Below are positions 377-61,300 of a stretch of 64,000 nucleotides of DNA, one piece after another (within the stretch, counting starts at the first letter, position 1; the number at the start of each line of letters is the position of its first letter). The notes beneath the pieces were generated by a model, which saw only the letters and a list, made by a program, of their open reading frames with translations, had not been told where the DNA came from and did not search any database. The stretch comes from Owenia fusiformis (lineage: Eukaryota > Annelida > Polychaeta > Sabellida > Oweniidae), in the NCBI GenBank assembly GCA_903813345.2, contig CAIIXF020000004.1, positions 4,235,525 to 4,299,524 on the forward strand. Direction: 5' to 3'. Position numbers and translations under genes: made by a program.

Positions 377-397
377 AATACACAGAGGGCTGAAACA

Positions 398-2650: not shown

Positions 2651-2652
2651 TA

Positions 2653-4369: not shown

Positions 4370-4374
4370 TAGGC

Positions 4375-6577: not shown

Positions 6578-7255
6578 TTTTATATTGATACATGTGTTTT
6601 CTCTGTTTCCAGGGCTCGTCTATCCCCAGTACTTTATATTGATACATGTGTTTTCTCTGTTTCCAGGGCTCGTCTATCCCCAGTACTTTATATTGATACA
6701 TGTGTTTTCTCTGTTTCCAGGGCTCGTCTATCCCCAGTACTTTATATTGATACATGTGTTTTCTATGTTTCCAGGGCTCGTCTATCCCCAGTACTTTATA
6801 TTGATACATGTGTTTTCTCTGTTTCCAGGGCCTAGGCTCGTTTATCCCCAGTACTTTATGTTGATACATGTGTTTTCTCTGTTTCCAGGGGTCGTCTATC
6901 CCCAGTACTTTATATTGATACATGTGTTTTCTCTGTTTCCAGGGGTCGTCTATCCCCAGTACAGTTGGGGACATAAATAAATGACAGGTGGATTTGCTGA
7001 AGTGAGGATTTCCCATGTTAAAAATAAGAGAATTTACAAGAGGCCATAAATCAGTGGATGAGATTATACAAAATGTAAAATATACAAATTTTAAGGGATA
7101 TGTATCTATACAATATTGGAAATTATGGGCTTTCAGACCACCATAATTAGGAAATAGTGATCGAAAATCGACCTGTCATTTATTTTTGTCCCCAACTGTA
7201 CTTTATATTGATACATGTGTTTTCTCTGTTTCCAGGGCTCGTCTATCCCCAGTAC
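6578..7255 (+). repeat. 54-bp array carrying a 3' splice site
   Basis: Eight copies of a 54-bp unit lie directly upstream of, and end inside, the first recognised GCC2 exon. Each unit holds tttctctgtttccag, a good polypyrimidine tract and AG acceptor, plus the first 19-20 bases of the exon. Only the last acceptor (7235) leads to an open exon: reading on from an upstream acceptor in the exon frame meets a TGA in the next unit. One unit has a 6-bp insert (near 6832), and the array is split by the MITE at 6962-7198. Confidence 0.9.
6962..7198. mobile_element. 237-bp TA-flanked MITE inside the array
   Basis: The ends are cagttggggacataaataaa and its inverse (28 bp, one mismatch). TA is duplicated at 6960-6961 and 7199-7200. 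Removing the element and one TA restores cccagtactttatattg, exactly the unit junction seen in neighbouring 54-bp copies, so the empty site is directly confirmed. Confidence 0.95.
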
Positions 7256-10200
7256 CCCCACAATAGTCCCCTTTGAACAGCTCCTTACTTCACCCCTGGA
7301 CGACAGAGCCAGTAAGTATGAGCCATGGGGGGGGGGATAACCAGAAACTCATAAATTAATGAATCCTAAATCCATTCTTGTAACCATGGAGATCATGATA
7401 GTGTCATATTGAAAAACAATGAATTATTATTTTTTTTAAATTTTATTTCCTTCATATATACCATAAAATCAAATATATAACAATCAACAGTGGACACTCT
7501 GTTTGTCTGTTTGTTTGTTTGCTTGCTTGGTTGTTTGTTTGTTTATTCATCGTCAGTTTGTTCAATATTTATGCCACTGGGTGGGTCATTTTATCAAATT
7601 TCCAAATCAACACTACTGGACATCTTGTTTGGGTACAATTTAGGGACTTAATGAGAAATTCAATATTAACAATTAATTAGTTTATTACTGCTGGCATGAG
7701 AATATGGGAATTATATTAAATTGTCTAATTAAATCAAGATTTGAAAATCAACAATTTCTAATGTTGCTTTAAGCTCTTGTTGGTATACTATATCTTAGCC
7801 CTTTGTCAGAATTACAAAATAAGGCATTTTTGTTACATTGCAAGAGGATTGTCGTGGATCATGCATAGGGGTGTGGTCTGAATGTCAACATTTGTAGAAA
7901 ATGATCTTGTTTTTATAGTTTGAACCCCCTCCCACCCTCCTTTAATAATGTTAATTTGAAAAATGTTGACTTTTGGGTGAATTTGTCCAATATGACAGCA
8001 TCTAAGGCCAATATGACAGCATCTAAAGCCATTAACACACTGGTATATACATTCTTAATCAGGCCTGTCAGTTTTTCAATTTATGAGATATGAATAACGT
8101 CATGCTTGAATAACACGCTGCTTAGGATCAACAAACGATATGCAAGACGGGTTTGTTCTACATGAATAATTTCTCAGCCTTATTATTGTCAACAATGGTG
8201 TCCCTAATTAAATCATGTAGAGTCTGGTCTCGAAGTTGACGTGTGTCACTGAGGACATGCACTTTACAGATCTATATTAAGGGATGTTCTGCTTTGATAA
8301 CTCTGAGAATCGAGCGATTATTGTCAAGTAATGATGTATCAAATTAACTCATGCAGAGAGTGGTCTTGAATTTTTATCTAGCATGATTTACATGATGGTT
8401 AAAGAAATCCCATATGGAGAAATCAAATCTCAAAATTCCCAATTTTTCACCATTTTGGTTAGCCAGACCCCTTCTTATCTGCCGATTCCACTTTGGAAAG
8501 ATCAAGACAAATTTTTCACTAGTTCATGCGCATTTAGCCTTGAACTTTTCATTTGTTTGACCTTCAAATAGAGAGCTAGCCCATATTGGTAGATTGTGCT
8601 AACTGTATCTATAACAAATTACCAAAATTTAATTTCACTGAAATGTTTGATATAATGGCCACCTTGCCGACGTAACAAGTGCCTAAATATCACTTTAATT
8701 TTTTTTTATTTATTTATTATCATATTCATTTAGTATTACATTAACAGTGTTGGCACTTGAAATGGATTGGACATGTAGTGAAACCAGTATATAGTGAGCA
8801 CCTCTGGAGATTCAAAAAATATTCACTGTATGTAAGTGTTCATTACAGAGAGAGAATTTTATACAGGGGTCATGAATGTGTATTGAAGTGGTGTTCACTA
8901 AACACAGGTGTTCGCCAGGTCAATTTGAATGTGTCTTGAAGTGGTGTTCACTAAACACAGGTGTTCGCCAGGTCAATGTGAATGTGTATTGAAGTGGTGT
9001 TCACTAAACACAGGTGTTCACTAGAGAGAGGTGTTCACCAATAGAGATTTAACTGTATTTTTACATATTCTTCAGGTGTTAAGAGTTTTACTTCTCTTGA
9101 TGAGGAATTCTTACAACAACAGATGAAATCTTCAGAGAAGAAGATAGAGCATTTGAATGAGGTAGGCAAAATGTTTGGAAAATATCTTGAATTGTTCGAA
9201 CTGAACCAAGGAGGATTGGCAGCCATTATTCAAACTTGATCTTCAGTTGCCTGGCATGGAACATTTTGGTAAAAATATTCCTGGCATGGAACATTTTGGT
9301 AAAAATATTCCTATAAGGTTCTCTTTGGACCAAGTATTTCGTTGGAAGATGGACATTACACATATTATGGTAATATTCAAGCTTCCTCAGCAGTTCTAGT
9401 CTTCAAAGTATGTTTAATATCATTACAAAATTGATCTATGCAAGGCAAAGGAGGATCAAGCTTAAATAATGGCTTTCAATCTTCTTTGAGCTAAACATTT
9501 AAACTGCCATATTTGGCTGTTTTGTTGGGCTGTTTCATTTGTTTTTTAAACTCATTCTGGATTTTTTAAACATCTTGATTCATAAAGTGTCAGTTGCTCC
9601 AGGGTCACATTGATATCTCTAGCAGAAAACTCAATTGACTGAGTAAACAAAGTAAAATGCTAATGATGCTATCGAAAGAAATTCATGTCACTATGCCCTG
9701 TAAAGATTTACTCAAAGACAAGCATCAACCTATTATAATATCTGTCTGGTTGATCAATTTTCTCTCACCAGGTAAATGAAAATGAAGCTATTTCTTTTTT
9801 TGGTTGCAATCTCCTGTCAAAAACCTGCATACTGTTACTCGAATTAATTGCGAATATTTAATTTGGCAAAATCAGCAAGCGGAGAAAAGGAAGGTGCTGT
9901 ACCATGAGTATAAGGCTAGGTATATTGTAAGTCAAGTGGAGATGACCAAAATTTCTGAAAAACTGCCACAGACTCAAATTGGCAAATTTTTGCATATCGC
10001 TGAATTCGTGAAATTAAAATGGGCACCAAATTAATAAGAGTAATAGCACATGAAGTTAGTAGTTAGTATTGTATGCAATACTAAGTCAAAATTTATTTTC
10101 AGCTTGTAAATGAAAATGAGGCCACGATAATGCGGCTTACGGAGCAGGCGAAGATCTTGAAGGATGAGATACGTAGGATGGAACGTAACAAAGAGAGGGA

Positions 10201-12465
10201 AAACTCTGTTTCTAACATGGAATACCTGAAAAATATTGTCATGAAGGTGAGAACAATTAAAAACTGTCTAATTTGAATGCATCCTGGATGAGTAAAAGTG
10301 TTTGGATGAGGAAATGTCCATATTTTAATACAATACAATACAATACAAAAAAATACAAAACAATACAATGCAATGCAATACAATACAATACAATACAATG
10401 CAATGCAATGCAATACAATACAATACAATGCAATACAATACAATACAATAATAGGGAAATAGACTTAAAAAGTGTTCATTTAAACAGGTGTTTTAATTAG
10501 AAAGGTTTTCAGGAACATTTACAGAAAAACCTGTATATCTTATCTGAACACCTCCCAATGTGAACACTTTTTCCTGGTCTCAAATTTAAGAAACCTGGTA
10601 AATGGTAAACGGTAGTTTTCCTGAACTGCCCCAGGATGTTGTCCATGTTACCATAGCAACTATTATTCAAAATATAACAATGGACACATATATGAAAGAA
10701 ACCATACTTATTACATGCTTTTCTAGAAATTGCAATTGCCAGAGACCATGGCCTTCTATTGTTGCTTTCTTTACAAGGCAGAGATGGTCTGAATATCAGA
10801 CTTAGAAATATGGATAATGATACAGATATTTTAATCTCCTTAATTTAATCATAAAACCTGATATAAAGAGCATGCACTGCTGAAATGATACTATTTATAA
10901 ATGATATATCATCATTATTAGATGGTTTTACAATGGATCTACTAACATTCAAAGTAATTATCGAAACAGCTGTGGAATTCATGAATGATGATGCAAGAGA
11001 CAAGTGTGCCGAATGTGATAATTATAATAGATCACTTTAATCTTTCGGTTGTGTGTCTTCTTTTAAAAATTACTGTGGAAAAGTTTCACAGTGGTCATGT
11101 TTTTGAGTTGCAAAATAGAGTGAAAAAGAGTGGAATAAGCAAGGAATAAAGGAAACAAGAAATCACTCAACATTTTGAATTGTTCCAATCATGAAATAGA
11201 CTTTTAAACTTTCAAATTGTAATATAGAGTGGAGTGGAAATACAAGAATATGATACAGTTCATTCAAATTTTAGAGAGAAATGAGTGGAAAAAGGAAGGA
11301 ATAAAGTAAACAGGCATTTAGTTAACATTCTAAATTGTATAGAAATGCAAGAAAATCAGACTGTTCAACAAATTTTAGAGAGAAATGAGTGGAAAAAGGA
11401 AGGAATAAAGTAAACAGGCATGTAGTTAACATTCTAAATTGTATAGAAATGCAAGAAAATCAGATACTTCATTCAAATTTTAGAGAGAAAATGAGAGAAT
11501 AAGGAAGGAATAAAGTAAACAGGCATGTAGTTAAGACTCTAAATTGTATAGAAATGCAAGAAAATCGGGTAGTTCTTTCAAATTGTAAAGAAAACAAGTG
11601 TGGAAAAGGCAAGCTCAAATTGACCTTTTTTCCATTACATGATACCGAATTGGCTTTAAGTGTAAGAAGTTCAATTATGTACACATCTATGTCTCTCTTA
11701 TCTCCTTTTCTTACATCTCTGTACAATTTATGGAGCTGTCACATAAGAAGGCCGTGTGGCCTCACCATTCGCCACCATGTGAATACTTTGGGGCAGACAT
11801 TGTGGCATGGCATAGACACAGGATGACCAAAACAAATAGTTTTGTAGCAAGATATCCCCGTCACACCAAATACAAATATTGATTAATAAATTTAAAAAAA
11901 AATAAATGCTCAAAATTATTCATATGGTGCACTGGTGGCGAATGGTGAGTCCACACAGCCAAGTGTGACAGCTACCAGCATATCTGTTCACATTATTCCT
12001 TGCTTGCTCCTCTCTTGTATTTTACATGTTAAAACATGACATATATGATATTTCTCTTCCAGTTTTTATTCTCGAAAGCAAGTGCAGAAAAGCAGCAACT
12101 TATACCAGTGTTGACCACAATGCTTAGACTCAGTAAGGAAGAAGTTTCCAATCTTGAACTCATGGCGAAAGGTAATGTAATCATTTCTTTAAAGAAATAA
12201 AGAGATAAAGAGCTTTTGAATGTTCAGACATTGTTTCTCAAATAAACTAAAATTATTTTCATGAATAAGTAAATGATTAAGGAACGAGAATAATCAAATA
12301 TTGACAGAATAAAAACTAGAGCTCGTTTGTAATAATATGATTAGTAGTACAATAGTAGTACAATTATGTGCTAAAAGATGGCTCTGTGTTCCAGGTGAAG
12401 ATGGCCAAGGTGAAGGAGCAGGGGGTTGGGGCAACTATTTACACCGTTGGTCGGGCATCACGTAA
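7236..12465 (+). CDS. GCC2: GCC2-like golgin, C-terminal five exons (partial)
   Basis: This is the C-terminal end of a trans-Golgi tethering golgin. Exons: 7236-7311, 9076-9161, 10103-10246, 12063-12171 and 12395-12465, with stop TAA at 12463. All junctions are GT/AG and phases agree. The product reads about 160 residues: a linker with PSTPTIVPFEQLL, a charged coiled-coil stretch (EEFLQQQMKSSEKK, RLTEQAKILKDEIRRMER), then a GRIP domain starting NMEYLKN, continuing QQLIPVLTTMLRLS and ending WGNYLHRWSGIT. The GRIP domain is known to bind Arl1-type GTPases at the trans-Golgi. The WxxYLHxWSG ending is what I remember as typical of GCC2 (GCC185) rather than GCC1 or golgin-245, so the family is firm and the exact member likely. 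The 5' exons were not found in the window. Introns hold the 105-bp satellite, a CAATA microsatellite and a fold-back element. Confidence 0.88.
8772..9058. repeat. gtgttcac-rich dispersed element with 56-bp direct repeats
   Basis: The segment begins agtgaaaccagtatatagtg and contains three copies of a roughly 56-bp unit (gaagtggtgttcactaaaca). It belongs to the same loose family as 13925, 21143, 47692 and 54460. It ends 18 bases before the GCC2 exon at 9076. Confidence 0.6.
10322..10450. repeat. CAATA/CAATG pentanucleotide microsatellite
   Basis: About 25 copies of caata with caatg variants lie 75 bases after a GCC2 exon donor. The overlapping ORFs on both strands are artefacts of a 5-bp repeat that has no stop in some frames. 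Confidence 0.95.
11100..11590. repeat. 105-bp-type satellite, cluster 2
   Basis: This is the same satellite as at 4375-4970 (taaacaggcatgtagttaac, gtatagaaatgcaagaaaat), with about five diverged copies of 85-105 bp. It lies within the GCC2 intron between 10246 and 12063. Confidence 0.85.
11734..11973. mobile_element. 240-bp inverted-repeat element in GCC2 intron
   Basis: Arms of about 40 bp (agctgtcaca, then ctcaccattcgccacca) face each other at 11734-11777 and 11931-11973. The centre is AT-rich with no coding. Target duplication is not clear. Confidence 0.75.
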
Positions 12466-12683
12466 CCATTGCAACGAATTGTCTGTGTCACTATAGCAAC
12501 CAACTTTACACCCAGCACCAAAAAGCAAAAAGGTGGCCAACTAGAAATTATTTTGTGTAACCATACAAACCATGGTGTACCAAAATAAAATCCAGAACTG
12601 GAAACCTCATAGAGCTGAATTAAAACATGACACCAAAAGCTGACATTTGAGACTTGCAAAATAAATGAATTGGAACTTGGCTC

Positions 12684-12689
12684 AATAAA
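12684..12689 (+). promoter_or_regulatory. GCC2 poly(A) signal candidate
   Basis: The first canonical aataaa after the GCC2 stop lies 219 bases downstream. A MITE begins two bases later (12691), so it either inserted just after the cleavage signal or its sequence forms the downstream element. Confidence 0.55.
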
Positions 12690-12690
12690 C

Positions 12691-13117
12691 CAGATGCGAG
12701 TAGAAATAATCTTGATTTACGTCATTAAAAATTAAAAATTCAGTCAAAAGTAATATCATATTTGAAATCTACCTGTAAAATTACATCTAGAAATGTGGTT
12801 TTAAAAAGTGTTTATCAACTTTGAAAAATTAATTTTCTTTGAAAATGTGACTTCTAGCTCGGGGAGATTCCCTATAGACCCCATGCTATAAAATCACAAA
12901 AAATGAAATATCTTTTCTTTTAATGGACAGATAATATTTTGCTTTACTGGACATATTTTCATTAGTATAAGTATCAGGCACATAAGGGTTATATGAAAAT
13001 TGAGCCACTTAAATTGATAATATTCAAGTTTAAGGGAACTTTTTTATATACCTGCCATGTTAATTGACCCGAATCAGCCACCTGGTGGTGAAACTGGTAA
13101 CTACCTACTCGCATTTG
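12691..13117. mobile_element. 427-bp MITE family member, copy 1
   Basis: The ends are cagatgcgagtag and ctactcgcatttg. A second copy with the same ends and interior (agaaatgtggtttt, ggggagattcccyatagac) is at 52823-53227. There is no ORF. Confidence 0.85.
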
Positions 13118-13924
13118 GGTAATTCAAGTCATTTCTTGTGGCTTATTTGTGCATTATTATTGTTTTGTTGGTATATCATAGAAGGAAGTGATTGAATCAA
13201 TTAACTGTAAATCAAGTATAAAATGCTGAACAATATTTACTTTAGTTGAAGCTGTTGAAATATGTGCCACTGAGAAAAATACCCAAGGAAGAATGTTCCA
13301 GTAATTTATTGTACCACCAGCTTATTATCTTTTTTTAAATGTAAACGTTCACATTAATGCTGTGGGCAAAAAGGTTCCATTGTCTCAATAAGTCCATCTT
13401 AAAATGCTTTATTGTAAATACATATATGTTCAAATAGAACAAGCGGGTTTATGCAATGTATGCATATTATTGTACATATGGGCAAAAATGAATTTGTAAA
13501 TATGAAACGTGTTGTAAATGATGGTAGCTTGGCTGTCTGCAGCAAGTTGTAATGTCCCCCCTCCCACTCAACATGCATGTGCTTATAGGGTGAAATGAAG
13601 TGGAGGGGGACAAATACTTGTTGAAAAAGTTTAAAAGGTTATTTTATTTAAGGCAGCTATTGGTTATGATGGTATAAGAGTTGCATATGTTTGCTACATT
13701 ATAAGCATACAATGTGATGGTATAGATGGAGTGCAGATCAGTTGATCATGTTGAATGTTCACCGAGTGAGTTCAGCAAAAGTTTGGCTCAGAGAGATTGT
13801 TTTCTTAAATCGATGTAATTTGCAACATTTGAAATTAATTAAAAGAAAATCCTGTGAAAACAGTACTATCTTGTCAGTTTGAAGCAGTTTTCAGTGTACC
13901 AGTGAAATTTTTATTTTAGGCTAA

Positions 13925-14093
13925 AGTAAAACCTGTCTTAGTGAACACCTCTTTCTAAACACGTGAACACCTATGTTTAGTGTGCACCACTTCAATAAAC
14001 ATTTTACATTGACTCCTGTATAAAATCCCCTCCAAAGTGACCACTGCCTACAATTGTAGCTCCATAGGTGTTCACTATATCCAGGTTTCACTG
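13925..14093. mobile_element. agtgaaacctg-family inverted-end element
   Basis: The left end reads agtaaaacctgtcttagtga and the right end, inverted, cagtgaaacctggatatagt. The interior repeats gtgaacacct words. Related copies or fragments lie at 8772, 21143, 47692 and 54460, and a further trace near 32440. Confidence 0.7.
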
Positions 14094-14325
14094 TATATTG
14101 GTAGTAAGTCACAAGACTCCTTCTGATACTCACAACATCTTTCTGTTTCACAAGAAACTGAGAAGAAATGAGATGTCATGGTTTATCAGGATGCACCAGA
14201 CTCACTCAAGAAATAAGGAAAAATAGTTTTGAGGAAAAAACCTTACCCATCACTTCATCATTTCCAAAAATGCATGTATTGTTAAACAAAGAATGCATTG
14301 AATGTATTGCATTCTGTCTTATTTC

Positions 14326-14830
14326 ATTTATTATCCCATCGAACAAAGTTCGGAGGGATAGAGGAACGCGTCTGTCCGTCCGTCCGTCCGTACGTACGTA
14401 CGTACGTACGTCCGTCCGTCCGTCCGTCCGTCCGTCCGTCCGTCAGTCCGGGCAATAACTCAAATACCGTTGGCCCGATTTTGTTCATATTTTGTACACA
14501 TATACCCTATGGGATAGAAGTTCTGCTTGAAAGCCGATTTTCAAAATGGCCGCTCATTTCAAAATGGCGGCCATTTTAGTGCCGATTTTACAGTAATTTT
14601 GAAAAATGGCCAACATTTTTATGTGTGTGTTATTTTACAAGTACGTGTGCGATTTTTCAAAAATTTTAGAGGTGGCTACTTAAAAGCATATTATTCCTTC
14701 TGATGACAACTTTGCTAGTGAGCAACTATTTTGAAAATGGTGGCCTTTCTGGTGTGTTGTTTTATGATATTTGCTATTCGTTTGTAAAGATGCCAGCCAT
14801 TTCTGTTCGATGGGATTTGGCGTTGCCGTT
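14326..14830 (+). repeat. cgtc-microsatellite dispersed element
   Basis: The core reads ttatcccatcgaacaaagtt, then ggagggata, a run of cgtc/cgta tetranucleotides (14371-14455), then caataactcaaatacc. Blocks of aaaatggcggccatttt follow. Diverged relatives occur inverted at 26075-26235 and 50760-50975. Confidence 0.75.
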
Positions 14831-15175
14831 GTTCTGGTTTTTATAAGTATTGCAAATGAAATAAATAAGTTAAAGGCACACAGTACTTAAATGTGCTTAA
14901 AGCCACCTGTTTAAAGTAATAAATAATGCCTAGATATTGAACAAATATTTCATTCTATTGAGGTGAATACCTGTACATCTTTCACAAGTGATATTCACCG
15001 AAAATAGAGTGAAATATTTGTTTTATTATATCACTGTCTAGCTAAACATCCCTAATATTATTAAGTCATAGGTTAACCTTTGAAATACATACAAATCTAC
15101 TCGGTTCTTCTGCCATTTTGACTTACACTGAACTAAATTATTTACACTGAACGAAAACAAATTCTTTGAAAATTC

Positions 15176-15312
15176 CCGGGAGCGTGGGATATCGCTAGAT
15201 ATCTCACGGTTGTCTAATCTGATTAGCATTGCCATTGAATATCGCTAGATATCCCACGACATGTGACCCGGTTTTGACCAATCATACTGTCGCTAGCTAG
15301 ATAGCGATATAA
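15176..15312. other. Cluster of atatcgctagatat palindromes
   Basis: Two copies of gatatcgctagatatc-like palindromes (15188-15204, 15239-15255) and a looser one (gctagctagatagcgatat, 15292-15311) occur within 140 bases. They could be binding sites or the ends of a decayed element. No gene is adjacent. Confidence 0.5.
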
Positions 15313-15682
15313 TAATTGTTGTTATCCCGGAGTGGACGATTCGGCTTAAATGTATTGTAATGCAAACTGTATTATGTCAGATCGTTATTTAGAATAACAA
15401 GTTCCTTTAAACGTGTTGTATTTTGAAGTCAACATGTATGAACAAACAAGAAAATGGTCATGCCGGTCAGGCATCTTTCCATCACTCCATATATGGTTAA
15501 AATAACTGCATGATTTTCTCGCATTGTAGTAAACAAAGATCCCTGATACCTGTTAACTTTATTCCTTGGCCTCAAAATTGGCTAAATTGGCCTCGTTTCG
15601 AAACATGACCACCTTGACGTTTTCTTTAAAGACTATGGGCCCAAGCACTGCGGTTGTACACGCTTAGTATATATTTAACATA

Positions 15683-15742
15683 CAGGGTGTTCCAAATGAT
15701 TGCAAACTATTTTGTCCTAATTGTTACTTTTGGTACACCCTG
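15683..15742. mobile_element. 60-bp mini MITE, TA-flanked
   Basis: The ends cagggtgttcc and ggtacaccctg are inverted, with TA on each side. This is the shortest of the mariner-type pieces in the window. Confidence 0.7.
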
Positions 15743-17089
15743 TATGAAAAACTGAGGTAGATTTTACACTTGGAGGGTTGAATATTATTCAGAAATAAAG
15801 TGGGAGAAATATTAAATATTGTGTTTGTTGTGTTATATGTACTTTTATTCCATAGTTAGCATGATATTCATAGGACAGCATGTCAAAATAAAAACGGTAT
15901 TTTTGTAATCAGTGGTAAAATATGATATTTTTGACAAATTTTCACTTAACTATAGCATACGGTGTTAAAGCCATGACATGCGGCGCCGTATGCTATGAAT
16001 TATGGATTTTTGCTACTTCTGACTCAAAACGAGGCTTAGTGCCAACATCGCCGGATTGTTTGGAAAATTCGAATTCAATCACTTAATTTTCGACGATTTT
16101 GATGACTTTTACTAAGCTCGCTCGTGCAGATATCATATCCATTCGTGGATAAAAATCATATCACTCATAAATCATAGGATATCCTCTATATATATTGCAC
16201 GTAAATGTTGCCACATTTGCAAATCCAAATTCTCAAACATTTTCCTCATAGGTGGAATTGGCATATCTTCTATTGACAAAAATGAATGCAACGAAAACTC
16301 TTCATTTTGTTTTGTCTCACTTCATGTATTTTCAGTTTGTGGTTTAATTTTCAAAATTTCACCCGTTTAAAATTCTCTTTTCCCTGTCCTTTCCCAGAAT
16401 TCTAATATCCTGATCATTTATACCATAATAACCCTCTTAAAAGATTTTGCCCTACGAAAATCTTGGGACTTTCTGTGTTTGTGTTCTGATGTCTTGGGAA
16501 CCTGAAGCACCATCTAAATGAAAAAACTAAGTCTATATACAGTACAGGAAAAGAGAGTCAATACATTCCATGTACAACTTTCAAGTAGGTGGCACTTCAA
16601 GATTCTGTGAGTAATGCCCCCCCCCCCCCCTATATTCAGTCACTTGTACTTTGATACATGAAAAAACGGGTCAGTGCAGTCCTCATTCAAACATAGGACA
16701 GATAGTAAACCAGTAGAGCTCAACCAGAAATCAGCATTGGTTAGTGCATCAAAATTTGTTGATTGTTTTTTTTATTATTACTTTTGAATATTAATTTTGG
16801 TCTTCAATTAATCAATTTCAATAAAAATTTGATGATTTTGTTAAAACGGCCAAACAGAAACATCCAGTTAATATTGGAGCTTCTAGATGCCAAATATTTG
16901 GAGGGGAGTGTACTTCAGGAGAACAAGTTTTTGGAGGGGAGTGTACCTCAGGAGAACAAGTCTCAGAAAAAGTTGTCAACAGCACACTCGTGAGTATAAG
17001 TAACCAACATAAAAATACCATATTTTTATTCTCCATTATTTATTTATGAACCCATTTTGCCCTATTTGTTCAAGGGTAGTAACATTTAC

Positions 17090-17545
17090 ACATACACATC
17101 TTTTTTACATGTGAAGCTTATAACATACTATAAGGAGATTAACATGTACAGATTAACATACATAGATTTTCATGTATAGATTATGACATGTAGGTTAACA
17201 TCTACAGATAAATATATGTAAATTAACATGTACAGATTAACACATGTAAATTAATATGTAAATTAACATGTACAGATTAACACATGTAAATTAATATGTA
17301 CACATTAACACATGTAAATTAACATGTACACATTAACACATGTAGATGAACATGTACAGATTAACACATGTAAATTAACATGTACAGATTAACACATGTA
17401 GATTAACATGTATAGATTTACACATGCAAATTAACATGTACAGATTAACACATGTAGATGAACATGTACACATTAACACATGTAGATGAACATGTACACA
17501 TTAACATATGTAGATTAACATGTACACATTAACATGTAGAACTTA
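17090..17545. repeat. Minisatellite of acatgtacagattaac units
   Basis: Alternating words acatgtacagattaacacat and gtaaattaac or gtagatgaac, about 27-28 bp per unit, repeat roughly 14 times with drift. Confidence 0.85.
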
Positions 17546-47838: not shown

Positions 47839-47865
47839 AAAAAATGAATGATAAATATCATGAAT

Positions 47866-48329
47866 GGGAAAGATAATGTGCCTATAGTATTCAAATATAA
47901 ATAAAATGGGAAAGATAATGTGCCTATAGTATTCAAATATAAATAAAATGGGAAAGATAATGTGCCTATAGTATTCAAATATAAATAAAATGGGAAAGAT
48001 AATGTGCCTATAGTATTCAAGTATAAATAAAATGGGAAAGATAATGTGCCTATAGTATTCAAATATAAATAAAATGGGAAAGATAATGTGCCTATAGTAT
48101 TCAAATATAAATAAAATGGGAAAGATAATGTGCCTATAGTATTCAAATATAAATAAAATGGGAAAGATAATGTGCCTATAGTATTCAAATATAAATAAAA
48201 TGGGAAAGATAATGTGCCTATAGTATTCAAATATAAATAAAATGGGAAAGATAATGTGCCTATAGTATTCAAATATAAATAAAATGGGAAAGATAATGTG
48301 CCTATAGTATTCAAATATAAATAAAATGT
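47866..48329. repeat. 42-bp minisatellite, 11 near-identical copies
   Basis: Unit gggaaagataatgtgcctat (continuing agtattcaaatataaataaaat) repeats 11 times with almost no change (one a/g variant near 48020). The minus-strand 161-codon ORF across it is a 14-residue repeat translation, not a gene. Confidence 0.97.
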
Positions 48330-49047
48330 GAAATATGATTGGCCAAATATGTAGTGCTAGTAATTGTCACATACATGTATATGTAGTAACTAGCCTATAC
48401 AAAATAAAAGATAAAATACAAAATAAAACAATACACTTCTTAGATGTTGTATTGGTGCCTCAGGTAGTTTATTTCTTGAGTATTCAAACATATATTAAAT
48501 AAAATTTGAAATATGATTTGTCAAATATGTAGTAGTTATCACATATGTAGTAGTTGTCAAATATGTAGTAGCTGTTATACTGTACTCCCGGTTAATTTCG
48601 CGAGTTTTAATTTTGTGAATTTTGAGAAAACACTATTTCGCTGCTATTAAATTTCACGAATTTCATTAAGAACACCTACTACTATGTCATCTTGGACAAC
48701 GACCCGCTACACCTTAATCTCTTTTTCATAGTTATTTTTGGTTTATTTGATCTAATAAGCCACTATAACAGACATTCTTACTTAGTATCCCATTTATCGC
48801 CTAAAAACACTTGACAAATATTTTACAAAACATGAAATGCAATGGAGTAGCAAGTAATGAAAATTTCACAAATTAATTTTCATGATTTTACCACAATCAT
48901 GAAAAGCGCGAAACTAAATTGTACGCAAAAATACTGGGACTACAGTATAGTTAGAGGCTGTCACATACTTCTAAGTAGTAAATGTCACATAGATAGGGAG
49001 CTAACACATAGGGAGTAGCTCTATCGTATCAACTGTCACATAGATAG

Positions 49048-49301
49048 CATGGGCGTAGTCAGCTTTCAGTCAGGGGGCGGGTGCGTTGGCAAAAATATTT
49101 TCAGGGTGCGATGGTGGCAAATTTTTTTAAGATTTGTTTTGAATTTTACAAAAATGATGTAACTTCCTTCAAAATTGAGCTAGAAGCTTCAAATGAAAAG
49201 CATTTAAAAGCTCCTTTCTTCTTCTATCTAACGGTTTCTATTTTTTGGTTATGGGGGGGGGGCTTTGATCGCACCCATCGCACCCCCTGGCTATGCCCAT
49301 G
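49048..49301. mobile_element. 254-bp fold-back MITE, gatag duplication
   Basis: The ends catgggcgtag and ctatgcccatg are inverted, with inner matches (cagggggcgggtgcg against cgcaccccctgg). The 5-bp gatag occurs on both sides. Removing the element gives cacatagataggagctaaca, matching neighbouring repeats of that phrase. Confidence 0.8.
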
Positions 49302-49392
49302 GATAGGAGCTAACACATAGGTAGTTGCTGTCTCATATTAAATGTCACATAGATAGGAAGTACACAAGAGTAGTGGAAAAATCAAGTTATTA

Positions 49393-52300
49393 TTAAAGTG
49401 TAGCAACAGCTTCCTCGTTTTCAATCAAGGTTTCCTTGTCACCATCCATGATTTCCTTGTCTTCATTTATACTTTCCTTGTTTTCTTCAACTGTTTCAGG
49501 ATTTATACGGTAGATTTTCCTCACAAACCAAAAACACGCAAAGAAACCTATGCTCCCTGGAAATATAAAACACTATGCTCAATATATGACACTAATAGAG
49601 ATAAATGCTCCAATGGGAGCATCGGCCAACATTGTTACAAAGTAATATAATACGATAAAGGATACAATGCAACAATTGATCATACACGAGCAATAATATC
49701 ATGATAAAATCATGTACATAGACAGATAGAGAAGACTTTGGAGCTAAGTAAATAAACTAAATATAATCCCGATGATATTGCGTATTGTATATGAACAGAC
49801 TCTCTATTTTCAATTTTGAAGAGACACCCCAAATAAATATTTTACCTGTGAGTAGGAAGAACACAAAGACTACAATAAAGGTGTAGCCAAAGTAGAGCAG
49901 GGTAGATACACCCCCAATGATCTCAAGTCTGGACACAAAGTAATAGATACAATATATGAACAGGTAGGCTGCCGTGAATCCACTTGTTAGGAATGAGCGC
50001 CACCACCAGTGGTAGTCCTGAAAAAAAGTTTTCCATTATTAGTGTTGTAGGTTTTCAGATTGTTGTATTTTGAATAAAATAATTTGGGTATCTTTTATTG
50101 AATTTTCATTTTTACAGGAATTCAAGTAAAAAGCACATGCCTATATTCAGAAAAGTATTGAAAACACAATTAGAATTAAGATATATTTCATCCTGGGAAA
50201 AAGGAACACAAAAAAGGATGAATGAAGAATAAAAGAGACAATTTGAAAACATCAAAACTTTCCAGAAAATAATTTTCTTTACTAACATTTGATATGTATA
50301 TTTTTTTGATAATGGCTACATCATTGTTTCTACATCTACTGATATTGTTTCTGTAAAACATTGAAACAACCAGAAAATGTTAATCTTTCAATGTTTTCAG
50401 ACAATGACTTCATCAATGGCATTGTGGGTCCCACGCTTTAAACAGGAGAAAGCTCTTATTTTGACAAACTTTCCACTAGCAACTGGAAAGTATAATATGC
50501 TTCAAATATTCACATATAAAATTTCAACAAAATCACTCCACAATTTTATCAGTTTAAGCAACAACGTAAAATAAAACATGAGAAAATGGCCACTCACTAA
50601 AAAGTGTGATATGCTTCTATGTACAGTCTAGTCACATGTAAAATTTCAACAAAATAGCTCCACCACTTTTTAGGGTCTAGTACAAAATGTAAACATAATA
50701 AATGTAAACAAAATCACTTCACTAGTTTTCCAGTTACAGCAGAAATTGTAAAATATTGAGTAACAGCCACCATTTTTCAAGATGGCCACCAGTTTTTTTT
50801 AAATAATTACATTTTCAACTTAATCAATATAGTAATATCTTGTATATTTTTTTGCATTTAAAACAAACATTACACTTTCATCTGTATTTGAGTTACTGCC
50901 CAGGTGTATGTCTGTAAGTATGGAGCCATTCTCTATATCCCTTTGAACTTTGTTCGATGGGATAATTACTGCAAAACCAAACACCAGGAATTCTCATTTC
51001 AGACATTTTAACATGGTAGTCCACTGGCAGATCCAGAAGCTGACAAGGGGGGGCCACATTTCAAGTGAAGCCAAAAACTTTTTGGGCCCATAAAACCAAA
51101 AATTGGGCCCGAATTTTGAAAATTTAAGGCCCATTTTTGAGGCCTTATATGACCCGCCAGTGTAGTCAACAGAACAATACAAAATTGGTTCCAGAAGATT
51201 TTTCACATTGTGAGATGATCGGATTAATAGTGTTATGAAACACAAATTTTACTGTAATACCATGCAACTTTGACAAATAAACAGCCAATTTTACCAAACT
51301 GTATTTATTGACAAAAGTTCACAGGTAGACAAACCCAAGACCCTCCCCCATTGGATATTGACACATGCTAAACAATATTTGTTAACATACCTCGGCACGT
51401 AAATGGAGATAGCATAAGATGATTGTATTCTGCAAACACATGATAACGAGAATAATAAAAACGATGAGAAGGAATCCAAACGTGTAGTAGACCTGGTGAT
51501 TCCTGAAATAAAACATAGATTTATCATACTGAGGTGATTATACACATCATGCATGTGATTTTTCATACTTCAGGCAATCTTTTCATAGAATCAGTGTTTC
51601 TCATAAAAATGACCAGATTGAGTATGGCAAGTGATTTTAGACAGTCATATCTTTAACCATGAGTATTTTCCGGCCATAAATACATTGGTTTTTATTAGAA
51701 CCAACTCTCTGAAAAAGTATGGATAATGACCCCACCTTGGCACTTTTTAAAAAATGTTAGGCTTATTTTCTAAAAAAGAGGATCTTGTTCTTCTCAATAT
51801 AAATACATTTCATACATTATATTATTTGTTTGAATAAACTTAACCATATCAAAAATTTATTCTGCACTACATGTATATTAACAGAAAACAGAAAAGAAGA
51901 TCTTCTTTTGAGTAAATAGGTTCAACATTTTGAAAACATGTTGACATGGGGTTCATATTCATAATTTTTCGAATTGTTCGATTGATATTTTTATTATCCT
52001 TGAGAATTTAATTGAAAGATAACGTATTGTGTTAGTGAGACATGTCATTTTTAAATTGAATAAGTACTCATTGTGAAAGATATGACCATATAAAGTCACT
52101 TGCCATACTAAACCTGGTCCTTTGTTTTGAAAAATTGGGGTTTTGACTAAAAAAACACAAAAACTTGGATTTCTCCCTATCTAAGTATGTATCATATACC
52201 TAGTCATTTATCCATTTAATTTATAACTCATAAAATATAATTCTCTTACCATATGCTATTGAGAATGAAGAACTGTAGAATGAAAATACAGCTAAATGGC

Positions 52301-55300
52301 AGAAATCCTCCCAATATTATAGAAGGAATTGGTTTCGTAAAAAACCTTTTCCATGGATGATTGGGAATGTCCCGAGGAATCTTACTGGTTGTCACTGGCT
52401 GTTTGATTGGCTACAAGAAACAAAGATTACGAGGAGTAATTATAAGGAGAAAACTCAGTCACACAAATGTAAGTGACAAATACAGGGTGAGTCCCCAAAA
52501 ATGTAACTCTCTATTTCTGGTTATAACTTTGTCATAATGATGGGATTCTTTTGTAGATAGAGAGTTAAAATAAAACTAATTTTGTCAATCAACTTTTGGT
52601 ATATTTAAGGCTTGATCTAATATCATTCTGTTAGATCAATACACCCAGGTTTGAAAATATAGAGTGATGCTCACTTGCATCAAATTTAATGAAGTCTTTC
52701 AAACGTGAATAAAAGTTATGTAATTCATGAGTTGCACTTATTTAGGTTCACCTTGTATTGAGGAATACCAAACAGTTGTAATAAATTTCTGTAATAATAA
52801 AAACAACACATCCCCAATATCCCAGATGCAAGTAGAAATAATCTTGATTTACGTCATTAAAAATTCAGTCAAACTGATGTCATATTTCGAATCTACATGT
52901 AAAATTACATTTAGAAATGTGGTTTTGAAAAGAGTTTATTTATTTTCTTTGAAAATGTGACTTCTAGGTCGGGGAGATTCCCCATAGACCCCATGTTGTA
53001 AAACCACAAAAAGTGAAATATCTTTTCTCGTGTTGGGCAGATAATATTTTCTTTTACTGGACATATTTTAATTTGTATAAGTATCAGATACATAAGGGTA
53101 ATATGACAAGTGAACCACTAAAACTGATGCATATTCAAGTTTAAGGGAATTTTGTAATACCCTGCCATATTATTTCCCCCGAATCAGCCACCTGGTGGCG
53201 AAACTGGTAACTACCTACTCGCATCTGAGTAATTGTTAATTCCACAACATCCCTTTAAAATGCATTCTTAAAATACATAGTAACTTTTAATTTATACGTA
53301 CTGCTTTTCTGAATCCAAAATATGCTCCAACAAATGTAAGAGGTACGCAGGCTCCAAACCATGAAATTAAGAGAGTTGCAAGCATCCTAAATTCTGTAGT
53401 CGCTCCCAGACTCCACTGTACAAGGTTCAACAGGAAATAGATGGCGAATACGATTCTACAATTAATGCAATCAATTCTACAATAATACAATCACTCCAAT
53501 TCTACATAATACAATCATTCCAATTCTACAATAATACTGTTATTTCAATTCTACAATAATACAATTATTTCAATTCTACAATAATACAATTATCCCAATT
53601 CTACATTACACAATCTAATCATTCCAATTCTACAATAATTTCAATTCTACAATAATACAATTATCCCAAATCTACAATTACTCAAATTCTACAATAATAC
53701 CATTATCTTGATTCTACAATCATACAATGACCTCAATTCTACAATTCTTTTAACAGTTGAAGTCTGAATAATTTCACTTATTTGCACTTGTAGTATGGTA
53801 TTTTTCAACTAAATTTTATTTTTATTTTTTGAACTAAATCAACATTATTGAGTAGCAAAACCCCAAGAAGAGGTTTTCCTGATATGTTTAACCTGGCAAG
53901 CAGATGACGATTTAATACTTTTTAAATCTCATAAAAATGACCATTAAGATTTTATGTCCAGTTCTTACTCACCCCTGGCATACAGTAGCTGTCAGAATGG
54001 CATTAGATTTCCATTTTTCACCTCCCATCACTATAAAAAATTTTGTTAATAATTATTATTTATTTTATTCATTCATTTATTTATTTTCATTGCACAATAG
54101 ATTTGTGATAAAAAGTACTTCTAATTTCCTTTAAAATATGATAAGTTGTATCATGATTTACATGGGCTAAATATTAGGACACCAAGGCAAAAGGCATATA
54201 TTGGTACATGTATATCATGTGTTGAAAAAACTTTAAGGGTTTACATTAAAAAAATAATTAACTAGCCCTAATGGCCGACACTATGTACAAGCAATAATTT
54301 AAAAGAAATACTTTTGTATATCCTTGAAGAGAAGTAACCCGCAGGGCCGCTTAGGCACACATATAGGATAATGGGACACGTCTTCAATGCCCCTCTGTTA
54401 GCAGGTGACAGAAACCCCAGACTTGCAAAAACTGAAAAAAGTAAGTTTTTTTAAATTCAGTAAAACCTGTGTAAGTGGAATTCTAAAAAGTGTTCCACTT
54501 GGGACACATGGAGTGTGTTCCACTTAAAGAGGTTTACATAACATTTAGGTGTTTCCTGTACAGAGGTGTTCCAATTGACAGTGTTATGACCCAGGTGTCC
54601 GTTTTTGGAACTGTTGTAACTTACGATTTGGTTGCAAGTCAAGTCATTGTTCATCAAAACACAGACCATGATTTTCCTAATTTCTTGGTACTGTAATTTA
54701 AGATCATGCTTAAGACAGACCCCTTGATGGGAAGTTGCAACTACAGCTCAGCTGTGGTGGCTAGCCCTTATGGGTCAGCGGTAGAGGATCAGATTTTGAA
54801 CTGGAAGGTCCTATATTTGATTGCCACACAAGGTGATAAAGGACAAGTCTCGGTTTGGAGAACAGTCTCCTCACCTGGGCTAATGTTTTTTCATGAAAAA
54901 TATAAAAATATCACCCAAATTAATTATGGATATTCAGAAGAGGACCTTCAAAGACTGCAGAAGACTGATGAACTTTGTTCTCCAAACCGAGGCTAGTCTT
55001 TTAGCAAAATCCCTATCATGTTTCAATATTAGTCCGGCAGCCAAAGTGTAAAAAATTGAGTGACCTTGTCTATTGCTAATGGAACAGTTATGCCCATGCC
55101 ATATTTCACAAAAAACAATCTCGATGTACCATATACATTAAAATTATATTATTTATAACCAAATTGCACTTTGCCCTAGGACTGAAATTAAAACTGATAA
55201 AATAACTTATAATTGAAATAATAATTACATGAGAAGATTTCAATTATTTTTACATTGTTATTTTGTTCATAATTTTATGTGATAATTAGGCCTAATATTG

Positions 55301-58300
55301 AGTGATTATTTTGAGTACTGATTTTGAGTGCTTAATTCAATACGTACCTAGTGTGATAAGAGCCATGAAAAATATCTGGACTCCATTGCCAAGTAACACG
55401 GAAAGAAACATTGCCATTCTAGGTGGTCTAAATACATCTCCTTGGACTAATCTATAACTCCCAGGAACAAATTTTCCACTTAACTCTCTCTGATCAGAGT
55501 CCTAGAAAATACACATAAAGGGGGCTCACCATACGCTCTGGAACATAAAAAATCGAGTCGACTTCTGTATGAAAAGAAATCGACTCGATTTTTTAATAAA
55601 TCTGGTAACCAACCCATGGGGTTCACTATGCTACTGTTACTTTCAGACGGTATGTCATAAACAGCAAATCTTTGTTTTATAAATGGTTAATTTACATAAA
55701 TTTTCATTTAATGTTTTGTTCAGTAAATTATTTGACCAAAAATGTTATTATTTGCCTAAAATGTAATTTTTGGGGAAAAAATAATTGATATATCTTATCA
55801 AATATGAAAATTACTGCTGAAGATATTTGTGATCCAGAATTATCCAAATATCAATTCATTAGAATTGAGAAAAAATTATGAACTGTAAAAATCATAATGT
55901 AATCCTGAAATAAAGTAAGAACTGTTGGTCTTTTTAGGAAATGGGTTGCAAATAAATAATCAAGTTACTTTCAACTTATCTCTTATCTTCATAGACCCTT
56001 TAATACCTTGCTTTTATATTGAAGAAAAACTTGCTTACTGTACTGTCTATCTGGCTGTAACGTTTGAGATCCTTACATATGATAACACCAAGACCTCCAC
56101 TGAGGAAACACACAACCAGTAGGGAGTTCATGATGCTGAAAAATATGACAGCGATGAAACACATTCAGAAGAGTTTTTATGATGCTGAAAGATATGACAG
56201 TGATAAAACACACATTCAGAAGGGAATTCATGATGGTGAAAAATATGACAGTGATAAAACACACATTCAGAAGGGAATTCATGATGGTGAAAAATATGAC
56301 AGTGATAAAACACATAACCAGTGGGGAATTCATGATGCTGAAAAAGATGACAGTGATGAAACACACAACAAGTAGGGAATTCATGATGCTGAAAAATATG
56401 ACACTGTTGAAACACACAACCAGTAGGGAGTTCATGATGCTGAAAAATATGACTGTGTTAAACACAAAACCAGTAGGAATTCATGATGCTGAAAAATATG
56501 ACTGTGTTAAACACAAAACAAGTAGGGAATTCATGATGCTGAAAAATATGACTGTGTTAAACACAAAACAAGTAGGGACTTCATGATGCTGAAAATTCAC
56601 CACTCACGAGCAATATTACCTTGATAAAATCCTTTTTTTATTAACCCTGCCCATTACCTAAAGTTAAATATCTCAGATTTGATGTATAAAATATCATAAT
56701 TCAAAATCATATGATAATATAGATAAGAGAACATACCTGAACCATAGGATGTTGGTATGTGGCATGGAGTCCAAGATGTAATCCCATCTGGAGGACCATC
56801 TAACATTGTTATTTTCCTGAAATACCATATAAAATTATTGTACATAATAGACAATCATTGTACAGTACATAACAAACAAGTTTTCTACACAATAGACAAT
56901 TATTGTACAAAATAGACAATTAATGTTAACAATATACAATATTATTTGTTACATAAAGAGCAAGGCAACTCTCTACCGAGAACGTAATCCCCACGATTTT
57001 AATGCCAATTTCCATATTTGGACAGCCACTCTGAATTTCTAGAGGCATATGAAGAAACAGAGTATAATATTCGAAATCTACTGTTAAATAAATATGATTT
57101 GAAATAATAAAAAAATACTTTTGATTGATCTGAAAAGGTATACTTACTCTAAACCTAATAGAGTATGTATAGTTGAAAGTGATATCATTGTTGGTACCAG
57201 CCACTCCTAATACAGGGGCCCCACTACATGTTGCCTCTCCAGTCTTGCCAGCATTATGCTTGATGCTAAAATGAAACATTTAGTACATTTAGAGTATGTA
57301 TACATGTAGTTGAAGATTATATCATTGTTGCTACCAGCCATTCCTAATACAGGGGCCCAACTACATGCTGCCTCTCCACTCTTGCCAGCATTATGCTTGA
57401 TGCTATAAAATTAAACATTAGCCAGATATACAAATTACACATTCAGTTGTTTTTAAGGTCAGAGCTTTATCTCACAAATACAATTTTAATTGACCGAGGC
57501 TTCATTGAGACTATTCCTTGACCTGCACACCCATCAACACAAGACCTCAACTTATTGTGTGTACTAAAAACACTATTTACCTCCTTGGTTCAAGTTTAGC
57601 TGAGATAAGACGTCCTGCAGAATTCCCGAGGGAGCTTCCCCATTCTTCCTTTTCTCCACTGTGGTAGGCTATGGTGATCTCAACATAGTTGAATATATAG
57701 TAGGTGTCTTTCTGACTAAATTCAGCCTGCAATAGAGGAAACAATTGAACTAGTTAGGCTATGGTGATCTCAACATGGTTGAATATATAGTAGGTGTCTT
57801 TCTGACTAAATTCAGCCTGCAATAGAGGAAACAATTGAACTAGTTAGGCTATGGTGATCTCAACATGGTTGAATATATAGTAGGTGTCTTTCTGACTAAA
57901 TTCAGCCTGCAATAGAGGAAACAATTGAACTAGTTAGGATATGGTGATCTCAATATGGTTGAATATATAGTAGGTGTCTTTCTGACTAAATTCAGCCTGC
58001 AATAGTGGAAATAATTGAACTAGTTAAATGATAAATTGTGGTAGGGTATGGTGATCTCAACATAGTTGAATATACGAGGGGTGATTCAAAAGTAATGGAC
58101 AAAATTTTATAGGCACGCTTACCTTTACCAGATTTGAATGAAACTTTGTACAAATAAAGATTAATCAATTATCTATTAGATGTTAAAACTTTATTAACTA
58201 AATGCAAATACATTTTGAGATAGAGCACTTCTCTTGGATCATGGTGCATACACCCGGAATCCATTTTTAAGGCTATTTTCATCCTAATAACAAATGGATT

Positions 58301-61300
58301 TTCAATGAAAAGTTTGCTGGTGCAAAATATTTTGCAATGCAAGATGTATATGAAAAGCATATCGAAGTAAGTTCAATAATAATCCATATCATTCCTTATT
58401 ATTCCTGATGATCATCCATTTGAATTATATTCAATCCTCAATGTATTCTCCTCCAAGTTCAATTACTTTCTTCTGTCGGCGCACCCATGCAGAGAACACA
58501 TGCCCAAATCCATCAGCAGCCATGGTGTTCAGCTGTTTTTGTACAGCCATTTCCAGCTCAGCTAATGTCTGAAAGGATTGTCCCTTTAATGCCATCTTAA
58601 GGGTGGGAAAAAGATAGAAATCACAAGGAGCAGTATCAGGGCTATATGGAGCATGTGGAAGTTGAGGCATGTCCATGAATGCTGCAAGAGTATCCTGAAC
58701 TAGCTTGGACCTGTGTGCTGGGGCATTGTCCATGTGTAACAAACGATTGTCTCTCGTGTCTTTCCTTTTCTTTTGAAGTGTCTGTCTTAGAAATATCATT
58801 GTGATGTCATAGCACAATTGGTTGCTGAATTTAGAACTCAACAGCAAACACATGGGCATGTGAGTCTTGCTTGACAATTGCATTACCATGCTTGTTAGAC
58901 ATATCATGTGTGGTAATTGAGTCCTTAAAACAAAATCAAGCAAAAATGACAAAAACATTCAATTATCATTAAAAAACCAATTCCACCCATGCTTACCCTT
59001 GTTACCATCGTTACGCATAGCTGAAACAATTTCAAATGCATTTAAATGAGAATTCGACACAAAGTAGAGAATTGATTGATCTATTCACTGTGAAAAAATT
59101 AGACTGATTGGGTGAAATTTAGTATGCCTATAAAATTTTGTCCATTACTTTTGAATCACCCCTCGTATAGTAGGTGTCTTTCTGACTAAATTCAGCCTGC
59201 AATAGTGGAAATAATTGAACTAGTTAAATCATAAATTGTGGTAGGGTATGGTGATCTCAACATAGTTGAATATATAGTAGGTGTCTTTCTGACTAAATTC
59301 AGCCTGCAATAGTGGAAATAATTGAACTAGTTAAATGATAAATTGTGGTAGGGTATGGTGATCTCAACATAGTTGAATATATAGTAGGTGTCTTTCTGAC
59401 TAAATTCAGCATGCAATAGTGGAAATAATTAAACTAGTTAAAATGATAAAATAGAATTTTCTTCAGCCTGCATGGTCTAACTAGGAATAAATAACTAGTT
59501 AAAATGATGAAATTGACTTTTCAGCTCGTAAATTGCATTATTATGGATACTTAACTAGTTCAAAAATAGTTTGAATCTGGAAACGGTTCTCATAAAAAAC
59601 GTGACACGCTATGTTTTGTGCACTTTTGGATACTCACATTGATAACGCAAGCATCTTTAGCTTTGCCTTCAGCGGTGACGTAACATCCAATGGGGAAGCT
59701 AGGAGAGCAGTATTTCTGGTCACCCTCGACTTCATAGCACCATGTGACTGGCATGTTATCTATGATCCTGTCAGTGGAAAATAGAAGTTTGTTAAGCAAA
59801 AACTAAATAATAATATAATTTTACATGAGAGACTTTGTATACGAGGGTTGTCCCAGAAGTACATGTAATGCTCTGTATGTTTTAACTTCCTTTATTATTC
59901 TTCGATTCAGCTGAAATATTGTGCATATTGCAATCGTAAATATTATAACCCATATATAAATGAAAGTTAACAAAAACAAGTCTGCAGAAGATCTTGAAGT
60001 AATTATACTAGGAGGTTATTAAACTGCACATGATCCTGAATCAATACAGTTCCTGAAAAACACTTATATACAAGTTATATCGAAATGAAAAATATGAATG
60101 TTTTTTGGCCCACCCTGGATATCGAATTGAAAACATTATCACCATGACAAACCTTTAAGTGTCTCACATATTCGATCAAAATTTGCCATGCAAACATGTT
60201 AGTCTACTTTACTGGCCCCCCTTGCTGTAACAAGGAACACAAAACACATTAAAACGCAAACATAAACCAATTAGTCAGACGATCACTTCACTATGAAAGT
60301 TAGGGGTGTTCAAGGCAAATGTGTATTAGCAGAATACGCTGTGTGCATGGACTAACACAATGTCAGTGGTCATTTACTGTGTCAACTTAGTAACCCTTGC
60401 ATATCCTGCTCACTCAAGTATTGAATACTTTTTTTATGATCTAAATCTTTGTGGTTTATAAAAAAATGTGATATATTTTAGTTGGAAATACATTAATAAA
60501 TATATTCATTCAAACAGCACTAGAATGCGGGAAGAAAGAGCAATGGTGACAAAATGCAGACCGAATTTTCCGTAAGGGTTTCAAACATTTCTGGACACAA
60601 TCATACATGTACTTCATGTGTACTGTTATTTTTAGTGCTGTATTTATAGATATAATTTCATGTATTAAAATCATATTTTCCAGCAATGACTTCAAATTCG
60701 GAACCACCCCCATATCACATTTTCTTCAATAACTCCAAACATGTGTAAACATTGACCATGTGCATATAAATTCAGATTTCACGAGCTCTTTCCTATTCGA
60801 TTACCTCATACACCCCTGCATGGATTTGAGTTGGATTCGCCTTTTATACGTGAGCCGGTACACATCGCAAACGCTGATTGGATAAAGATTGCGAGAATCT
60901 TTAATACGTACCAATTGTGCTCAAAGTTCATCAATATTCCTCTCTTTAGGAAGTCTAATTTTTTCCTGGATACCAAATCATTGTTTGAGTATATCTTCTG
61001 GCAGAGATTTTTACAGTTTTCATCTTTGCCAAAGTCAATCTAAAATATGATATTAAATCAATATTAAATCAAACAAATGAACATATAATAAAGCAAAGTT
61101 AACATGGTTTTTTCATGCATGTATTACAGGGGCTTGTCTGGAGGGTCGGACAAGCCCTCCGATGTGTTTGTACTGATCTAAGAAGTCAAACTCTTTATAA
61201 CAGTACACACTTATTGGAGGACTTGCCCTACACTCCTGACAAGCCCCTGTGTCATGTATCAGTGTATCTGAGCTGTATCTGAGCCTATATATATTTGCAC

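Follow-up and report, generated by a model that had tools for sequence, protein, structure and literature searches.

Mirage-like tandem arrays across intron-exon boundaries, mostly at 3' splice sites, in a 64-kb window with GCC2 and two TM9SF2 paralogs

Background

Mirages, which are minisatellite-like repeats lying over intron-exon boundaries, have been described in the amphioxus genes Adh3, BflGb6 and BflGb9 (both globins), TnC and PGBD5 (PMC3087553, PMC3902484), the cases of PGBD5 and TnC in the latter paper (PMC3902484). In the sections of these papers drawn on here, mirages occur at both exon boundaries with units of about 10 to 160 bp (PMC3087553), and many of the repeats have intact splice signals (PMC3087553, PMC3902484). 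The mirage of BflGb6 consists of the 3' end of the intron and the 5' part of exon 2, and that of BflGb9 lies at the 3' boundary of an exon (PMC3087553). The same sections suggested that mirages do not interfere with regular splicing, described a mirage copy number that differs between two haplotypes, and cited a further source for somatic instability of the Adh3 mirage (PMC3087553). Human paralogs from segmental duplications have minisatellites, with units of about 30 bp on average, at exon-intron boundaries (PMC2812944, in the part used here), and tandem genomic duplication has been treated as a source of introns (PMC3443670, PMC2891723, likewise in part).

The arrays described below resemble the amphioxus mirages in being minisatellite-like repeats over the intron-exon boundary, and their layout is that of BflGb6 as given in the sections used. 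In contrast to the amphioxus cases, seven acceptors and only one donor are involved within 64 kb, two of the arrays carry transposon insertions, and the arrays are known from one genomic sequence alone. The human repeats are similar as boundary minisatellites in duplicated genes; however, as far as the part used describes them, they change splicing or form novel introns (PMC2812944), whereas here the frame is kept only if the array is intronic. Intron gain by tandem duplication, in the parts of the papers used, also involves short intragenic duplications with splice signals (PMC3443670, PMC2891723), but no new intron is apparent here; the introns already present are extended, at their 3' ends. 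The phenomenon is already in print, and any novelty would be confined to a possible bias towards 3' splice sites; a preference for acceptors is not claimed in the portions of the mirage and minisatellite literature covered by our searches, which were not aimed at this point alone. If the host is not a lancelet, mirages are more widespread than the sections used of the two lancelet papers show (PMC3087553, PMC3902484).

Gene models

Exon models were built on both strands of the window, that is, the whole stretch of 64 kb that was analysed. Its G+C content is 0.30-0.38 in 2-kb steps, and TRF returned 65 rows. The last five exons of GCC2 lie in the window on the plus strand. Its downstream exons, when joined, have GRIP and Rab_bind domains and match the GCC2 chain 3bbp_D (E 5e-11); exon 7236-7311 is without a domain of its own and was modelled from its splice signals and its open in-phase frame. 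TM9SF2A and TM9SF2B are tandem paralogs on the minus strand. Each model is one open frame (657 and 699 codons, respectively) with GT-AG introns, in which only the acceptor beside each exon body is used, and the matches to EMP70 have E values of 4.4e-221 for TM9SF2A and 1.9e-166 for TM9SF2B. A TM9SF2 peptide gave no match among solved structures. When TM9SF2A was compared with viral contigs, one stretch fitted a pattern and no contig encoded a relative. In total, the models contain 38 acceptors, in agreement with the original prediction of about 38 internal exons, and 37 donors. Exons of the paralogs are abbreviated below by letter and number (A6, A13 and A15 in TM9SF2A; B6, B7, B9 and B13 in TM9SF2B).

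Anatomy of the acceptor-spanning arrays

TRF together with the exon models showed tandem copies of the intron end, the AG and the exon start at seven of the 38 acceptors, namely those of GCC2 exon 7236, TM9SF2A exons 6 and 15, and TM9SF2B exons 6, 7, 9 and 13. A gapped search without TRF recovered six of the 38 acceptors and one of the 37 donors (score of at least 34) and missed B13. The steps are 17-137 bp at the acceptors and 139 bp at the donor, and the exonic share of the acceptor units ranges from about 5 to about 105 bp. The six acceptor arrays named in the original prediction all exist in the TRF output, the sequence and the exon models, with B13 as a marginal case; B7 had been overlooked. 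The units contain the intron end and the AG as proposed, but not within the proposed limits of 10-65 exon bases.

The GCC2 array (6579-6961, plus strand), recognised by TRF, in the sequence and by a check of the AGs, has seven upstream copies, all with an intact AG. The unit consists of 34 nt of the intron end and 20 exon bases, and the steps are 54 bp, except for one of 60 bp. An insertion of 237 bp resembling a MITE, with no strand assigned, lies inside the array before the last copy (6962-7198); its terminal inverted repeats agree at 28 of 30 bases, and TA is present on both sides. The last copy with the real acceptor follows, together with exon 7236-7311 (7199-7311, plus strand).

All the remaining acceptor arrays are on the minus strand. 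For A6 (26513-27006; exon 26578-26430; TRF and exon model), there are four upstream copies plus the real copy, and the unit of 100 bp comprises 34 intron and 66 exon bases. The array of A15 (20772-21009; exon 20804-20693; TRF and exon model) has four upstream copies in nested steps of 58 and 30 bp, which make an 88-bp repeat. That of B6 is a single array with seven upstream copies in steps of 57, 107 and 90 bp, split by a mariner-like element. Its exon-proximal part (57660-58074; exon 57726-57581) contains 90-bp units and the remainder of the 107-type unit that the element divides, and its upstream part (59166-59480) contains 107-bp units and one shorter copy, whose AG lies just before 59467. 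The element itself (58075-59165, minus strand, 1,091 bp) is flanked by TA at either end, has terminal inverted repeats of 26 bases without a mismatch, and contains a partial transposase ORF (58958-58431), the DDE_3 match of which is under the cut-off (23.9 versus 28.6 bits). The acceptor of B7 (57171-57449; exon 57265-57148) is spanned by a duplication of 137 bp in two copies, including about 105 exon bases, with the one extra copy 137 bp off. At B9 (56101-56595; exon 56135-56039; TRF and exon model), there are nine upstream copies in steps of 49-51 bp, and AC replaces AG in two of the decoys. The array of B13 (53453-53745; exon 53455-53302) has 12 upstream copies in steps of 17-29 bp and touches the acceptor with only about 5 exon bases in its unit, which makes it a marginal case.

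As in mirages, the unit lengths lie between about 10 and 160 bp and vary among the genes, and many, but not all, of the repeats keep the splice signal; the AG is intact in 29 of 32 decoys (B13 excluded), as expected if the arrays offer many decoy acceptors. The two elements recognised here sit inside arrays and are without the real acceptor, and so give no sign of a splice site borne by an introner or transposon. They also post-date the GCC2 and B6 arrays. The array set is a real and rather dense collection of mirages. Reads repeated or collapsed at exon edges during assembly could give a similar picture, and the draft genome of amphioxus apparently contained one misassembled mirage (PMC3087553, in the part used). 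However, the copies bear private substitutions and indels, MITE-like and mariner-like elements with flanking TA lie inside two of the arrays, and the exon 6 arrays of the two paralogs are related yet have different steps. Because of the transposon insertions with their TA duplications and the private changes of the copies, an assembly artefact is hardly credible.

Relationship of the exon 6 arrays

Among the acceptor arrays, a shared unit was found only between A6 and B6, and the others repeat their own exon edge. The units at different exons are thus unrelated save for this pair, which bears out the view that no single satellite has spread. Comparison by eye indicated that the 100-bp unit of A6 and the 90-bp unit of B6 correspond to the 107-bp unit of B6 with 7 and 17 bp, respectively, missing from the junction. 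In a tree of the exon 6 copies, those from A and B intermix, and the mean distances are 0.043 within A, 0.047 within B and 0.060 between them. On this comparison of their sequences, the A6 and B6 arrays stem from one founding junction, so that six independent acceptor origins, not seven, are to be counted. The differing unit lengths had been taken as a sign of independent events; this holds for several exons, but not for A6 and B6, which are alike despite their lengths.

When the TM9SF2 paralogs are compared, identity is 88-96% in exons 5-8 and 16 and 58-85% in the other exons. Third-position identity is 0.865 in exons 5-8 and 16 (215 codons) versus 0.591 elsewhere (435 codons), a grouping that was chosen after the identities were seen; exon 1 (0.77) and exon 2 (0.87), which do not belong to the named tract, also have high values. 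The high-identity tracts (25334-27358 and 20195-20366 in TM9SF2A; 56737-59767 and 49846-50017 in TM9SF2B) probably reflect recent gene conversion. The paralogs differ in which exons bear arrays.

Placement of the arrays relative to splice sites

We compared the positions of the arrays with random placement. After overlapping rows were merged, there were 20 arrays with units of at least 20 bp, or 19 founders when A6 and B6 were counted once. TRF rows outside the three gene spans (those in 1-6578, 12466-19874 and 43464-49392) and, within the genes, rows in the LINE ORF (37315 and 37324) and in exon B17 (49431) were excluded. Each array was collapsed to its founder and placed randomly in the gene space in 20,000 trials. 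The array list was merged by hand, masking was limited to the four transposon stretches that had been recognised, and placements that fell entirely within an exon were discarded. For the 19 founders, 1.25 acceptor and 1.22 donor matches were expected, and six and one were observed. The probability of at least six acceptors was 0.0007, a value that is nominal and post hoc, and that of at least seven matches of either kind was 0.0071. Without B13 (five observed), P was 0.0046; with the small-unit arrays added, it was 0.0011, TRF row 8996 being counted here beside the overlapping array 8873; and when A6 and B6 were treated as two arrays (seven of 20), it was 0.00005. In a test of proximity, in which the observed distances were taken from whole arrays and the null from single founders, 11 of the 19 lay within 40 bp of a splice site (expected 4.7, P = 0.0018), with eight on the acceptor side (expected 2.4, P = 0.0014) and three on the donor side (expected 2.3, P = 0.40).

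Direct comparison of acceptors with donors was borderline (7/38 versus 1/37; Fisher's test, 0.031 one-sided and 0.056 two-sided), and with A6 and B6 counted once and B13 left off (5/37 versus 1/37), p was 0.20. A position-wise count, in which a local copy had to agree at 24 of 30 bases, showed no acceptor excess, with 5/38 acceptors and 1/37 donors against 317/3000 random intron positions and 259/3000 random exon positions. We prefer the founder placement to this count, in which positions belonging to the arrays themselves inflate the random rates. The assertion that the acceptor cases are far from random is thus upheld only nominally and post hoc (P = 0.0007), given the borderline comparison with donors and the position-wise result. 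The acceptor excess rests on one window, the same one from which the hypothesis came, and something beyond random placement may favour acceptors.

A duplication across a donor was found at TM9SF2A exon 13 (22763-23040, minus strand, 139 bp in two copies; exon 23103-22944). The unit comprises 98 exon and 41 intron bases, and the copy lies 139 bp downstream. It is the only donor-spanning case among the 37 donors. Arrays that do not span the splice site begin 2 and 8 bp from the donors of TM9SF2A exons 15 and 9, respectively. Together with the A13 case, these indicate that the arrays are not exclusive to acceptors.

One explanation of this distribution is a mutational process focused on 3' splice sites, such as stalling of the polymerase at the polypyrimidine tract while the gene is transcribed or replicated, by which duplications would be founded there more often. 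It would account for six acceptor origins where 1.25 are expected and for donors at their expectation, for two further arrays that lie within 40 bp upstream of acceptors and do not span them, and for the several steps at one acceptor (58 and 30 bp at A15; 57, 90 and 107 bp at B6). However, the difference between acceptors and donors is borderline (p = 0.20 with A6 and B6 counted once and B13 left off), the hypothesis was drawn from the window in which it was tested, the 30- and 90-bp units could have been derived from longer ones by internal deletion, and published mirages, in the sections used, lie at both exon boundaries (PMC3087553). We consider such a process unlikely. Somewhat more doubtful still is its strong form, in which the 3' splice sites of this lineage are targeted, intron ends found duplications several times as often as intron starts or any other position, and mirages are an acceptor-specific and continuing source of intron growth and decoys. 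If the acceptor excess holds genome-wide, it would identify a new hot spot for tandem duplication and one way in which introns lengthen.

Decoy acceptors and splicing

Use of a decoy would lead to a premature stop in 41 of the 43 evaluated cases. Splicing therefore presumably relies, as a rule, on the last acceptor, and the idea that only this acceptor serves fits the models. The intact frames suggest that the decoys stay unused even though they are transcribed first. At GCC2, A6, A15, B6 and B9, the scores of most decoys come to within about 3 bits of that of the real site, and decoys that lack the AG have much lower scores. The decoys are probably ignored, and exon definition would be the likely cause: splicing would pair the downstream donor with whichever acceptor is closest to the exon body. 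An exon preceded by a row of nearly identical acceptors provides a natural test of splice-site choice.

The decoy AGs could also have a function, either in regulating expression by unproductive splicing or in aiding a weak acceptor. The premature stops that follow 41 of the 43 evaluated decoys would suit the former. As for the latter, six of the seven array acceptors (GCC2, 3.8 bits; A6, 7.8; B6, 10.0; B7, 8.3; B9, 9.5; B13, 1.8) are below the median of the 31 other acceptors (12.2 bits), although those 31 trained the scoring matrix and are thereby favoured in the comparison. The acceptor of A15, however, is strong (14.0 bits), and A and B differ in their array-bearing exons. Moreover, the decoy AGs in four arrays showed no extra conservation over the rest of the unit: changed bases amounted to 3/50 in the decoy AGs and 31/1094 at the other unit bases (p = 0.18), in a count that covered six of seven copies of GCC2, four of A6, six of seven of B6 and nine of B9, excluded A15, B7 and B13, and dropped a GCC2 copy of aberrant length as well as a short copy from B6. 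Because the AGs do not change at a lower rate than the other bases, there is no sign of selection keeping them. The amphioxus mirages, in the part of the paper used, apparently left regular splicing unaltered (PMC3087553). A function of the arrays is thus very unlikely, and we take them to be neutral.

Origin of the arrays

We favour, with a probability of about 0.8, the explanation that the arrays are mirages, that is, minisatellites that arose by local tandem duplication across exon edges and then underwent turnover, and that are tolerated if the site beside the exon body is intact. Each would have started as a short local tandem duplication in the genomic DNA that by chance straddled an exon edge. 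Slippage or unequal exchange would afterwards have added copies, removed others and made them more alike, as would gene conversion between the two TM9SF2 paralogs. A duplication within an exon would usually be purged by selection; one across a splice site could persist because the intact site stays by the exon body and the extra copies leave with the intron. Across an acceptor, the duplication would place the intron end, AG and exon start upstream, and the transcript would be unchanged if the last acceptor is used. The exon body does lie at one edge of each array, as had been pointed out, but this is forced and says nothing about the mechanism, because only a duplication with an intact copy beside the exon body would survive.

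By eye, the founding junction of A15 has 5 bp of microhomology (TTCTT) common to the intron flank and the exon, and the other founding junctions have few shared bases or could not be resolved. We infer that founding was by DNA slippage or microhomology repair. Several observations count against the favoured explanation: the acceptor excess, since random placement predicts equal numbers of donors and acceptors and few of either; the microhomology, which is clear at one founding junction only; and the high third-position identity of exons 1 and 2, which lie beyond the tract assigned to gene conversion. On balance, the mirages here would be of the ordinary kind, possibly with an acceptor bias.

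In an RNA-templated origin, a pre-mRNA or a lariat-exon intermediate would be copied back into the gene by template switching. The unit boundaries, read by eye, speak for it in that the units start some 16-41 bases before the AG, roughly where branch points lie, and stop within the exon. The distance from the unit start to the AG nevertheless varies (about 16 at B9, 25 at A15, 34 at GCC2 and A6, and 41 in the 107-bp unit of B6), the donor case at A13 has the opposite polarity, the microhomology at A15 fits DNA repair, and head-to-tail tandem copies require no RNA. Template switching involving RNA, one of the possible causes named in the original prediction, is unneeded, given that microhomology and the possibility that the shorter units are internal deletions of longer ones; we regard it as highly improbable.

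Other repeats and observations

Two 105-bp arrays in the GCC2 region (4364-4969 and 11237-11607) have the look of acceptor arrays, with an AG and then an open frame, and were rejected. Their units are 79-88% identical and their flanks seem related by eye; because the unit occurs at both places with related-looking flanks, it appears to be a dispersed repeat and not an exon edge, perhaps a dispersed element bearing tandem repeats. The start of GCC2 exon 10103 has a possible diverged copy 334 bp upstream (score 31), which is indistinguishable from chance and was not counted. A 63-bp array at 107-376 lies outside the gene models, and its minus-strand unit contains a donor-like CAG GTAAG.

TM9SF2A has two versions of exon 3 (32744-32837 and 39884-39977, 94 bp each, 67% identical), which are about 7 kb apart and separated by LINE sequence. 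The frame accepts either, and they may be mutually exclusive exons. A LINE with endonuclease and reverse transcriptase and an adjoining ORF having a GDSL-lipase domain and a zinc knuckle (33445-38010 for the two) lie in TM9SF2A on the strand of the gene, within an intron. Another intron position of the gene, on the same strand, holds a DDE_Tnp_4 transposase ORF of 687 codons (28724-30787). The C-terminus of TM9SF2B (49393-49556) is a repetitive, mostly acidic tail of about 37 residues, in place of which TM9SF2A has a short end.
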